A stretch of 47,878 nt of DNA from Allorhodopirellula solitaria (lineage in GTDB: Bacteria; Planctomycetota; Planctomycetia; Pirellulales; Pirellulaceae): assembly GCF_007859855.1 (NCBI RefSeq), contig NZ_SJPK01000022.1, positions 1 to 47,878 of the forward strand, given 5' to 3'. Each line of letters opens with the position of its first letter. The first letter of the stretch is position 1. This document shows positions 37,401 through 46,359 of the stretch, piece by piece. The position numbers and the translations under genes were made by a program. Under the pieces are notes generated by a model that was not told where the DNA came from, made no database searches, and was given only the letters and a program-made list of their open reading frames with translations.

Positions 37401-37516
37401 CTAAGCAACACACGATGAATAAAGTGTCGGTTTTAGTAGTGGACGAGGCGACGAGTCCTGCGGCTTTGGACTCCTCGCCTCGTCCACTACGACAGAAATT
37501 GATCGTGCGTTACTAA
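37401..37516. repeat. 115-bp MITE-like element, copy 2
   Basis: Same order as copy 1: CTAAGCAACACACGAT at the left end, arms at 37436-37458 and 37468-37490 around the loop TGCGGCTTT, then ACAGAAATTGATCGTGCGTT. The arms differ from copy 1 at a few positions (CTCCTCGCCTCG against CTCGTCGCTTCG). It stops 6 bp from the YbjN-like stop codon. Confidence 0.8.
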
Positions 37517-38177: not shown

Positions 38178-38774
38178 ATGACCTCGCTCGTGATCCGCGT
38201 CCTCCTTACCGCCTTCGAACCGTATGACCGCTGGCCCGACAACGCCAGCTGGCTGGCGCTGATCGATTTGACACGCTGGTATGACGGGGCGGTCGAAGTA
38301 GTGACCCGCCGCTACCCGGTGGACCTCAGCCAAATGAGTGAAAAGCTGCGGACGGACCTGCAGGAAGACTATGATTTTGCCTTGCACTGCGGCCAATCGC
38401 CGGGTTCGTCAGGGCTGCGTCTCGAGGCGATCGGCCTGAACCTACGAACCGATGGCAGCGAGATTCTCAGCGGCGCCCCTGCCGCCTATCGCAGCCCCCT
38501 ACCGCTGGCGAGCACCGCTCAGCACATTCGCCATGCTGGTATTCCCGCCGCGGTTTCGCATCATGCGGGCACCTACCTCTGCAACGCGGCTCTGTTTCTC
38601 AGCCAACACTACATCAGCTCTTTTGGGATGCGAACGGCATCGGCATTCCTCCATGTTCCACTGGCGCCTGCCCAGGTGGCTCGCGAGAACTCAGACGCCC
38701 CGAGCATGAGCACGCCGATGGTCAGCGCCGCCCTGGCGATTATGATTGAAAACCTGTCCGAACATCGACGCTAA
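38178..38774 (+). CDS. pcp: pyroglutamyl-peptidase I-like cysteine peptidase, 198 aa
   Basis: The C15 peptidase triad is visible: Glu83 in LRLEAIGLN, Cys135 in GTYLCNAALF and His159 in SAFLHVPLAP. The start VIRVLLTAFEPYDRWPDNAS matches the LVTGFEPF-G opening of the family. It removes N-terminal pyroglutamate from peptides in the cytoplasm. The length is slightly below the usual 210-220. It lies upstream of the leu leader on the same strand, with about 100 bp between them, and is divergent from the YbjN-like gene. Confidence 0.88.
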   Translation: MTSLVIRVLLTAFEPYDRWPDNASWLALIDLTRWYDGAVEVVTRRYPVDLSQMSEKLRTDLQEDYDFALHCGQSPGSSGLRLEAIGLNLRTDGSEILSGAPAAYRSPLPLASTAQHIRHAGIPAAVSHHAGTYLCNAALFLSQHYISSFGMRTASAFLHVPLAPAQVARENSDAPSMSTPMVSAALAIMIENLSEHRR

Positions 38775-38873
38775 ACCGCCGCTGGGATGGCCGCCGAATT
38801 TTCTGCTCCACGCAAACGAACCTCTGCGAACGATTCTCGCTCAAGGAAGGCAGCCGGTGCTTTTCGTCACCAC

Positions 38874-38903
38874 TTGACGCATCTCGTGAACACTGTTTAT
38901 TCT
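38874..38903 (+). promoter_or_regulatory. candidate sigma-70 promoter of the leu leader and leuA
   Basis: TTGACG (38874-38879) and TATTCT (38898-38903) are separated by 18 bases. Transcription would start at about 38909-38911, almost on the leader ATG. The leader peptide would then be translated from a leaderless or nearly leaderless transcript; no Shine-Dalgarno sequence precedes it. Confidence 0.5.
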
Positions 38904-38910
38904 GAAAAAC

Positions 38911-38988
38911 ATGCGGATTCAACTCACTCGACGACTGCTACTCGACCTCGGCCTGCTACCCGGCAGCTCGAGCCGATTCGTCGTGTGA
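38911..38988 (+). CDS. leuL: Leu-rich leader peptide of leuA (attenuator), 25 aa
   Basis: This short ORF reads MRIQLTRRLLLDLGLLPGSS, then SRFVV and TGA at 38986-38988. Seven of 25 residues are Leu, six of them in eight codons (CTG CTA CTC GAC CTC GGC CTG CTA). It sits directly before a terminator hairpin and the leuA gene. By analogy with leu operon leaders, stalling at Leu codons when charged tRNA-Leu is scarce would let a competing hairpin form and leuA be transcribed. The peptide itself has no other expected function. The gene symbol is by analogy only. Confidence 0.75.
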   Translation: MRIQLTRRLLLDLGLLPGSSSRFVV

Positions 38989-39029
38989 CCCGAGACCATC
39001 GCGTTTCCGCACACCACTGAACACGAATT

Positions 39030-39067
39030 AGCCCGAGCCGCCCGAAGTTGCGTCTCGGGCTTTTTTT
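39030..39067 (+). terminator. rho-independent terminator of the leu attenuator
   Basis: AGCCCGAG (39030-39037) pairs with CTCGGGCT (39054-39061), followed by a run of seven T (39061-39067). CGAGCCGCC (39034-39042) in the 5' arm can instead pair with GGCAGCTCG (38962-38970) inside the leader ORF, 8 of 9 positions, which is a plausible antiterminator. Confidence 0.8.
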
Positions 39068-39116
39068 ATGCTCGTCAACCGTTCATTCTTTCCCACCTTC
39101 TTTCACTTTTACTGCC

Positions 39117-40721
39117 ATGTCCGAGCCCACGTCTGCCGCCGACTCCTCCGCAACCGAACCGACGCCTGGCGTCGCGACGCGCCACATCCGCATCTTCGAC
39201 ACCACGCTTCGCGATGGTGAGCAATCGCCCGGTGCGAGCATGAACTTGGCCGAGAAGCTGGAGGTGGCTGCGGCCCTGGCCGACATGGGCGTTGACGTGA
39301 TCGAAGCGGGATTCCCGATTGCTTCGCCAGGGGATTTCGAGGCCGTCCGGCAAATCGCCGCAACCGTCCGCGGTTCGACCATCTGCGGTCTCGCTCGCTG
39401 CAACGAGAAAGACATTGATCGGGCTTGGGAAGCGTTGAAGGTCGCCCCGAGCAGCCGCATCCATGTGTTCTTGGCCACCAGCGCGATCCACCGTCAATTC
39501 AAGTTGCGGATGTCGACCGACGAGATCGTCGAGCGGGCAATCGCTGGAGTGAAGCGGGCTGCCACGCACTGCGACGATGTGGAGTTCTCCCCCGAAGATG
39601 CCTGCCGCACCGAACATGATTTCCTGTGCCGCGTTGTCGAAGCTGCGATCGATGCCGGTGCCACTACCATCAACGTTCCCGATACCGTCGGCTACGCCAC
39701 ACCCGAAGAGGTCTTGGAACGGTTCCAGATGCTCTGCAATCGCGTGCCCAATATCGACAAGGCTGTGCTGAGCACCCACTGTCACAATGATTTAGGGATG
39801 GCGGTCGCCAATTCCTTGGCCGCTGTCGCGGGTGGTGCGGGCCAGATTGAATGCACGATCAACGGCATCGGTGAGCGGGCTGGGAACGCGGCCCTCGAGG
39901 AGATCGTCATGGCGATCCAAACACGCAAGGACTGCTTGAACTTGTCCACCGGTATCAACTCCCGCCGCCTCGTTCCCGTCAGCCGTTTAGTGAGCAAGAC
40001 AACGGGCATCCACGTCCAACGCAATAAAGCCATTGTCGGCCGCAACGCATTCGCCCACGAATCGGGAATCCATCAAGACGGGATGCTGAAGGAGCGCAGC
40101 ACTTACGAGATCATGTCCCCCGAAGAGGTTGGGTTTGCCAAAACCGATTTGGTACTGGGCAAACACAGCGGCCGGGCCGCTTTGGCCGATCGAGCCAAAC
40201 AATTGGGCTTCACCCTCAGTGGCGAACAGTTGCAGGAGGTCTTCGAAAGCTTCAAGGTGCTCGCGGACAAGAAGAAAGAAATCTACGACGGCGACATCGT
40301 GGCCTTGGTCCAGCAACAGATCAGTGGACCGGAGACGTCCCAGTGGAGCTTGCTCGATTACGAAGTCACTAGCTCTCGCAGCCAGACGCCTCGCGTTCGT
40401 GTCACCCTGGGCCACGCGGGTCAGGAGTTCACCGAACAGGTAGAACAAGGAGATGGGCCGATTGATGCCGCCTTCTGGGCGGTCGAGAAAATCACCGGCA
40501 TCGAACTGGTGTGCAAAGACTTTCGCGTCCGCAGCGCCACGCTCGGTCGCGACGCAATCGGTGAAGCGAACTTGGAAGTCGAACACAAAGGACGGACCTA
40601 CCGTGGTGTCGGTGTCAGTACCGACAGCGTGGAGAGCACGATCCTCGCGATACTCAATGCGATCGACCGCATCGCGTCGGGAAAAACCGACGGCGAGGAA
40701 AACAACCTGCCGCAGCCCTAA
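39117..40721 (+). CDS. leuA: 2-isopropylmalate synthase
   Basis: The enzyme condenses acetyl-CoA with 2-oxoisovalerate in the first step of leucine synthesis. The start ATG 39117 ([20 protein letters not shown]) follows the terminator; the 39048 frame start would include the terminator itself. Signature blocks are [18 protein letters not shown] (about 24-41), [18 protein letters not shown] and [20 protein letters not shown] (metal-binding HXH region), then [18 protein letters not shown]. The C-terminal regulatory domain for Leu feedback is present ([20 protein letters not shown] to the end). The length of 534 aa is normal. The gene is preceded by an apparent Leu attenuator. No leuB/C/D genes are adjacent. 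Confidence 0.95.
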
Positions 40722-40731
40722 AGGACATCTC

Positions 40732-40783
40732 GTAGTGGACGACGCCACGAGCCCTGTTCGGTAGTGGACGACGCCACGAGTCC
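40732..40783. repeat. two direct copies of the 23-bp GTAGTGGACGACGCCACGAG motif
   Basis: Copies at 40732-40754 and 40761-40783 differ only at the end (GCCC against GTCC). With the inverted copy at 41037-41059, the second one brackets repeat copy B. They lie immediately after the leuA stop. Confidence 0.8.
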
Positions 40784-40787
40784 ATGA

Positions 40788-41032
40788 TTCTCCACAAATT
40801 CTCCTACGCCGAAGGCGTTGAAGAAAATAGCCGGTGGTTTGAGCGCGAGCGAACACCACCGGATACATCGCAAAATGCAAACGCCAACCCCGAATGGGGT
40901 TGAAGATCATTCATGACGAGGCCTGCGACCCACTTCGGGGTCGACGTTCGGTGACCAACGAACGCACGTAGGTGGCGCTGCGCTGACCTACGGCTATTTT
41001 CTATCATCCCGTTCGGGATGCTTGTGGGTAAT
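40788..41032. repeat. hairpin-array repeat, copy B
   Basis: Colinear with copy A through the whole core: ACGCCGAAGGCGTT, CCGGTGGT/ACCACCGG, CAACCCC/GGGGTTG, GACCC/GGGTC, CGTAGGT/ACCTACG and CATCCCG/CGGGATG. Several sites differ from A in ways that keep or improve pairing. The terminal repeats are degraded (TCCACAA against TTGTGGG). No gene lies in 40722-41114. Confidence 0.75.
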
Positions 41033-41036
41033 CGAT

Positions 41037-41059
41037 GGACTCGTCGCCTCGTCCACTAC
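41037..41059. repeat. inverted copy of the 23-bp motif after repeat copy B
   Basis: GGACTCGTCGCCTCGTCCAC plus TAC. It is the reverse complement of the MITE arm and of the copies at 40732 and 40761, and it closes a roughly 299-bp unit with the copy at 40761. Confidence 0.8.
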
Positions 41060-46238: not shown

Positions 46239-46336
46239 CTCAGAGGCATCGGCGGATACACGCAGTCATAGTCGCATCGCGTGATCAATAAGGAGCGAAT
46301 CTGGCGAAAATTATTTTATGGTGGACGGTATTGAGG

Positions 46337-46359
46337 GGACTCGTCGCCTCGTCCACTAC
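46337..46359. repeat. 23-bp motif copy between hrpB and the trypsin-like gene
   Basis: GGACTCGTCGCCTCGTCCAC plus TAC. An imperfect partner (TGGTGGACGGTATTGAGG) lies directly before it at about 46319-46336, so the site may be a decayed hairpin. It lies just past the stop of the trypsin-like gene. Confidence 0.65.

Follow-up and report, generated by a model that had tools for sequence, protein, structure and literature searches.

Attenuation of transcription by leader peptides is textbook knowledge, and a leucine example is the leu attenuator of Escherichia coli and relatives (leuL; Rfam family Leu_leader). The locus that we describe here, upstream of leuA in the planctomycete Allorhodopirellula solitaria, shares with leuL a short open reading frame (ORF) with a leucine run rich in the rare codon CTA, alternative antiterminator and terminator structures, and a position directly before leuA. 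It differs from leuL in having no Rfam match and in belonging to a clade in which the leader is predicted to be leaderless. Furthermore, leuC lies on another contig of the genome, so that there is no leuABCD operon.

Several other described systems resemble the locus in part. The trpL leader ORF of Sinorhizobium meliloti (rnTrpL) begins at the 5′ end of its RNA and is a leaderless attenuator, for which the short RNA and its translation have been measured (PMC10117765). It is, like our locus in its predicted form, an attenuator of an amino acid gene with a leaderless leader ORF, but it concerns tryptophan and an alphaproteobacterium. The actinobacterial LEU element also places a leucine-rich leader ORF before leuA; compared by its description, it differs in having a pseudoknot and in the pairing of the leucine run with the leuA Shine-Dalgarno sequence (PMC1262725). 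The initial annotation likened the leader to leaderless attenuators of Actinobacteria, but the word “leaderless” does not occur in that paper. In Staphylococcus aureus, a Firmicute, a leucine-rich attenuator peptide is likewise described as a leader peptide that controls branched-chain amino acid genes (PMC5794164). In a statistical paper, short leader genes are reported near structural genes in a number of phyla, Planctomycetes among them, and the authors favor reinitiation (PMC4833913). In a terminator survey, the term “planctomycet” is absent, and the main text is without “pirellula,” “leuA,” or “leucine” (PMC2965389). None of the open-licence literature matches listed describes attenuation before leuA in a planctomycete. 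Predictions for this phylum may be contained in a work on attenuation by Lopatovskaya and colleagues from 2010.

Layout of the leuA locus and proposed mechanism

The window, which is the whole stretch of 47,878 nucleotides that was analyzed (contig NZ_SJPK01000022.1), contains the following features upstream of and including leuA.

38874 to 38903, + strand: promoter, TTGACG (38874 to 38879), 18 nt, TATTCT (38898 to 38903); located 6 to 7 nt before the ATG in 13/13 genomes of the genus
38911, + strand: predicted start site, on or adjoining the A of the leader ATG, from the promoter position
38911 to 38988, + strand: leader peptide ORF, 25 codons, predicted to be leaderless, without a Shine-Dalgarno sequence
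38935 to 38958, + strand: putative regulatory leucine run, CTG CTA CTC GAC CTC GGC CTG CTA; six leucines in eight codons, two of them CTA
38962 to 38981, + strand: predicted antiterminator 5′ arm, in the final third of the leader ORF; conserved core, 38966 to 38981
39023 to 39042, + strand: predicted antiterminator 3′ arm, which shares positions with the terminator 5′ arm; conserved core, 39023 to 39038
39030 to 39067, + strand: intrinsic terminator; stem-loop, 39030 to 39061, T run to 39067
39117 to 40721, + strand: leuA, 2-isopropylmalate synthase, 534 amino acids, the putative regulated gene

The initial annotation had described a 25-codon ORF with six leucines in eight codons, then a terminator, then leuA, and this arrangement was confirmed (38911 to 38988, 39030 to 39067, and 39117 onward, respectively). 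The ORF runs from the ATG at 38911 to a TGA that ends at 38988 and would encode MRIQLTRRLLLDLGLLPGSSSRFVV, with the leucine run as codons 9 to 16; 7 nt separate TATTCT from the ATG. The terminator has an 8-bp outer stem plus CGC/GCG, and the fold of positions 38997 to 39068 has a z score of −3.43, with none of 200 shuffles as stable. A simple terminator scan missed the terminator at 39030 to 39067, probably owing to the scan's loop limit of 8. The LeuA protein scores above the NCBIfam cutoffs for 2-isopropylmalate synthase (TIGR00973 and NF002086).

A dispersed repeat, GTAGTGGACGAGGCGACGAGTCC and its reverse complement, occurs in the window at 37436 to 37490, 40732 to 40785, 41018 to 41059, and 46318 to 46359; immediately past leuA, two copies stand in tandem. 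In four sister genomes (loci L009, L010, L011, and L014), a short tandem repeat with the unit AGCTAGAA lies directly upstream of the leuA promoter.

We consider it very likely that the region before leuA acts as a sensor of charged tRNA-Leu through ribosome-mediated transcription attenuation. What can be read from the sequences themselves are the parts, their conservation, the rare-codon enrichment, the complementarity across genera, and the joint presence or absence of the leucine ORF and the terminator; from these we infer where transcription starts, that the ORF is translated, that ribosomes stall and transcription terminates, and that the locus responds to leucine. RNA polymerase would start on or adjoining the leader ATG, and the ribosome would begin at a nearly leaderless 5′ end. 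A shortage of charged tRNA-Leu would stall the ribosome in the leucine run (38935 to 38958), leaving positions 38966 to 38981 free to pair with 39023 to 39038, a segment that contains the terminator 5′ arm; with the antiterminator formed, the polymerase would read on into leuA. With leucine in good supply, the ribosome would reach the stop codon at 38986 and cover the antiterminator 5′ arm, the terminator would fold, and the RNA would end after about 157 nt.

Promoter position and the start of the leader

The promoter, the ORF, the leucine run, and the terminator are all kept in the 13 genomes of the genus set, which consists of the window's genome and 12 others with leuA. The leucine run holds 4 to 6 leucines in eight codons across these genomes, and the leader ends in SRFVV in seven of them and in SGF(V/M/L)V in six; these last codons coincide with the antiterminator arm, which is enough to account for their being kept. 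With a covariance model (R1), 13/13 genomes each had a single strong match, located at leuA, and there were weaker hits with E values of 0.001 to 0.09. A transcription start downstream of the terminator, which would have contradicted the initial annotation, is not indicated, since the best predicted promoter lies upstream of the terminator in 13/13 genomes.

It had also been proposed that the TTGACG-18-TATTCT promoter would start the RNA almost on the leader ATG and that the leader has no Shine-Dalgarno sequence. Both observations extend to the whole genus: the spacing is 6 to 7 nt in 13/13 genomes, and none of the listed set of Shine-Dalgarno motifs was found before the leader in any of the 13. 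The leaderless state is a well-supported prediction for the genus. We found the same spacing in 42/43 sequences of seven genera (g1, which is the window's, g12, g14, g59, g60, g61, and g66) versus 35/1,720 shuffles; the seven were picked after promoter positions had been inspected, and one of 44 sequences was dropped because it had no usable upstream sequence. In the other genera, the best promoter lay 6 to 7 nt before the start in 7/77 sequences versus 57/3,080 shuffles. For one locus (L008), the distance was counted from the first of two adjacent ATGs.

The attenuator could be real without being leaderless if an unrecognized promoter farther upstream gave the transcript a 5′ untranslated region (UTR), and the other genera offer a precedent, because their best promoter lies 20 to 99 nt before the leader start in 64/79 sequences; planctomycete promoters, moreover, are little studied. 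We regard this as unlikely for the window's clade, given the spacing in the seven genera, the lack of a Shine-Dalgarno motif throughout the genus, and the distribution of the two states on a LeuA tree quickly built from 52 rows, where 31 leaderless and 10 leadered rows require a single change of state. That count omits seven rows without a clear promoter class, and it becomes two changes if they are counted as not leaderless; several forks of the tree are weakly supported, and nine sequences from other genera with a promoter at 6 to 7 nt stand outside it. The leader in the window's clade is therefore probably leaderless, as judged from promoter position. In a survey that included one planctomycete, this organism was among the species with few Shine-Dalgarno genes and with a bias that may reflect leaderless mRNAs or protein S1 (PMC5397173). 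Leaderless transcripts are reported to be spared by kasugamycin (PMC3160421). No start-site map of a planctomycete was among the literature matches listed.

Conservation across the order and a second element before leuA

To the genus set we can add an order sample of 158 leuA upstreams from 75 genera. It excludes two extra leuA copies in G040 and partial or contig-end cases (G029, G131 contig 87, G062, G128, G078, G150, and G110); 12 genomes (G028 and 11 others) had no leuA match. The detector called an ORF by its leucine count per eight codons, with the ORF ending at most 110 nt before a terminator. At least 4 leucines in 8 codons before a terminator were detected in 123/158 upstreams and 59/75 genera, so that the leucine codons and the terminator, which the initial annotation expected in close relatives, are kept well beyond the genus.

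An ORF preceded a detected terminator in 125/158 upstreams, and the detector failed in 35/158, including two loci with a terminator and no leucine run (L024 and L187). Of the 33 upstreams in which no ORF-preceded terminator was detected, 30 are likewise devoid of any ATG-started ORF that reaches 5 leucines in 8 codons, which indicates that the leader ORF and the terminator come and go together. The remaining three (L218, L223, and L234) have such an ORF; by eye, a terminator is evident in L218 and L223, and L234 has a hairpin with the T run set off from it. Because the 35 failures include every sampled member of two genera, the attenuator is dispensable.

Those two genera are g11 (L018, L150 to L154, L156, L157, L159, and L160) and g80 (L183, L185, L191, L195, L202, L203, L206, L212, and L213), in which the leucine leader and the terminator are both absent. 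This pattern suggests loss or replacement of the attenuator.

In other genera of the order, we detected a second, conserved element between the attenuator terminator and leuA: a short ORF with codons for Leu-(Leu/Val/Ala)-Leu, followed by a hairpin. The search demanded an open frame that has a start and contains Leu-(Leu/Val/Ala/Ile)-Leu, with a hairpin of 6 bp or more following 0 to 10 nt later. The element occurs in 46/158 loci and 32/75 genera versus 1/1,580 shuffles (for example, L021, L026, L166, L192, L224, L228, and L236); it was found in 0/97 upstreams of ilvB, trpE, hisG, and leuC and in none of the seven leaderless genera, including the window's (0/13 loci). The first attenuator was also detected in 43 of the 46 loci, representing 29 genera.

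When one locus per genus was compared, the inner six pairs of the hairpin started 5 nt after the leucine codons in 23/32. The hairpin is of a perfect GC type (GCCGGY, 5 nt, RCCGGC), and three of these pairs occur both as G-C and as A-T (e.g., GC in 27 and AT in 5), pairing being a condition of the search. The codons vary mostly synonymously; the first and third leucines are present in 32/32, as the search required, and the middle residue is leucine in 22, valine in 8, and alanine in 2. The peptide often reads (S/T)RAxLLL or RAxLVL. An Rfam search of 12 other loci returned two matches below the gathering score (E values of 0.075 and 0.48). In seven genomes, the hairpin pattern GCCGRYNNNNNRYCGGC was not enriched (7 to 90 forward matches versus 7 to 105 reversed), and the second element is therefore not a dispersed repeat present in many copies.

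By layout, with L-x-L codons by a structured RNA near the leuA start, the second element resembles the actinobacterial LEU element more than the attenuator in the window does, and it could act at translation as a further sensor of leucine. Its leucine run paired with the region before leuA at −15.5 kcal/mol, compared with −14.1 for shuffled and −13.5 for swapped partners, and exceeded shuffled sequences in 20/32 genera (P = 0.02); the effect is striking in a few loci (L021, L182, and L229) and absent in others, which leaves the support for such pairing weak. As a tentative scenario, one that we think possible and would not favor over its alternatives, many Pirellulales may carry two stacked leucine sensors before leuA, an attenuator followed by a translational LEU-like element, and the clade that contains the window's genus and Stieleria may have lost the second and shifted the promoter of the first to the leader ATG, leaving one leaderless sensor.

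These observations bear on whether the window's own locus could be controlled at translation, with stalling exposing or hiding the leuA start as proposed for the LEU element. Leucine-rich leaders whose leucine run pairs with the leuA Shine-Dalgarno sequence do precede actinobacterial leuA (PMC1262725), and 32 other genera have the second, possibly translational element. We nevertheless find translational control at this locus very improbable: the second element is missing from all 13 loci of the window's genus, the ORF is followed by a terminator in most upstreams of the order, and the two are gained or lost jointly.

We turn to the attenuator's own leucine run. With the stricter threshold of at least 5 leucines in 8 codons before a terminator, 114/158 upstreams qualified versus 20/2,460 dinucleotide shuffles, and by the same rule 5 was reached for alanine in 2/158, for serine in 1/158, and for all other amino acids in none. 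CTA makes up 216/703 (31%) of the leucine codons in the runs, compared with 37/1,684 (2%) in leuA genes; in the runs of the window's genus, it accounts for 12/67.

A pyroglutamyl peptidase gene (PF01470) lies upstream of leuA on the same strand, at 38178 to 38774. Its end at 38774 leaves room for the view that the terminator merely ends the peptidase transcript and that the leucine-rich ORF is a product of chance. The counts against shuffles speak against the chance ORF, and a promoter lies between the peptidase gene and the terminator. In addition, a peptidase gene was within reach of leuA in only 1/31 loci searched, the window itself, and absent from the 30 others (the flanks spanned at most some 1.5 kb, except for 3 kb at a single locus), yet the terminator is kept; it follows that the terminator belongs with leuA. 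We give this view hardly any credence.

The predicted antiterminator switch, its spread, and its implications

The initial annotation had proposed that GGCAGCTCG pairs with CGAGCCGCC to form the antiterminator. The inner half of this pairing, GCTCG/CGAGC, held up, with 96.7% of genus alignment cells paired; the outer four pairs, the GGCA half, fared less well, at 62.5%. Positions 38956 to 39043 fold into one long antiterminator (−32.1 kcal/mol; z = −4.80; 0/200 shuffles as stable) that includes part of the proposed pairing and extends to CGATTCGT/ACGAATTAG. The antiterminator is thus longer than was thought, and the conserved pairing runs in the other direction, through the latter pair of segments. 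Over 16 positions, 87.5% of genus cells are paired, compared with 18 to 42% when the arms are slid by 1 to 3 columns; one position never pairs, and the alignment holds only 12 distinct sequences, which is few.

The initial annotation had suggested looking for covarying stems. Two antiterminator pairs changed on both sides, in six cells in total, a number of cells reached by 1/500 shuffles; the number of pairs with two-sided changes is itself ordinary (202/500 shuffles). In the terminator, 97% of genus cells are paired, and the changes are one-sided only. In the genus alignment, the conserved blocks are the promoter, the ORF, the antiterminator, and the terminator. A T-box or small-molecule riboswitch before leuA, of the kind by which some Firmicutes control amino acid genes, has next to no likelihood given these blocks and an Rfam search of positions 38400 to 39600, which gave no match at gathering score, leader families included, and four matches (E values of 0.19 to 1.9) that were all far below it.

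Across genera, the 3′ part of the leader pairs better with its own terminator arm (−20.3 kcal/mol) than with arms swapped between genera (−16.4 kcal/mol). This was the case in 51/59 genera (Wilcoxon P = 8e-9), and 8/59 did not beat the swapped partners; base composition may help the matched pairs. When folding was computed with the ribosome's footprint masked, upstream RNA held the terminator 5′ arm at 0.72 with the ribosome stalled on leucine and at 0.24 with it at the stop codon, and holding was higher in the stalled state in 59/59 genera. The difference between the last leucine and the stop codon was 0.48 for real sequences versus 0.07 for spacer-shuffled ones, with real exceeding shuffled in 117/123. 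At equilibrium, in the full-length RNA, the terminator is still dominant (0.82 stalled versus 0.95 at the stop), and the switch therefore needs the antiterminator to fold first. An untranslated leader gave an intermediate state in folding. The fold of the window shows a protective 1:2 hairpin, which does not recur consistently across the genus.

Taken as a whole, the initial reading of the locus as a leucine attenuator is supported: the tests aimed at refuting it, all run on sequence data, left it standing.

Within the same family, the leucine detector found no run of at least 4 leucines before a terminator in any of 108 upstreams of ilvB (28), trpE (27), hisG (26), and leuC (27), and no tryptophan or histidine run of 4 was present in the first 1,560 nt of these upstreams. 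One ilvB locus (L273) has 4 isoleucine, leucine, or valine codons in 8, which is unremarkable. Eight control loci are possibly clipped at contig ends, and the count leaves out L296 and L297 (ilvB), L325 to L327 (trpE), L353 and L355 to L357 (hisG), and L385 to L387 (leuC). No such attenuator was found before ilvB, trpE, hisG, or leuC in this sample.

In a phylum sample, 29/88 genomes, the window's own included, had a leuA match; one of the 28 new loci (L262) was dropped for want of an anchor. Seven of the remaining 27 have at least 5 leucines in 8 codons before a terminator: all five members of family f21, which belongs to the same class, one of f43, and one of f38, whose two other members reach 4. 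A scan of named genomes retained 80 loci, and 7 qualified at the same threshold, namely, L032 (Stieleria tagensis), four planctomycete bins (L033, L034, L036, and L037), L047, and L091. None of the rest reached 5, and 4 was reached by L055, L062, and L078; the planctomycete bins L035, L038, L039, L050, L052, and L099 failed the detector.

L047 and L091, which come from bins labelled Verrucomicrobia, have a leucine-rich leader ORF and a terminator before leuA.

Planctomycetes have unusual cells, and their gene regulation is little mapped. The leucine attenuator appears to be widespread in these little-studied bacteria; it would be a device of a known kind, working like E. coli leu attenuation, in a group where the listed literature offered no account of it. 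Its conservation implies that in planctomycetes the ribosome would trail RNA polymerase closely enough to steer it. The sister genera with a predicted 5′ UTR (g7 or g79 type) and those without one would form a natural experiment, asking if attenuation can be driven by leaderless initiation. If the second ORF also senses leucine, leuA in the genera that carry it would be under two successive leucine sensors, one acting on transcription and the other on translation.
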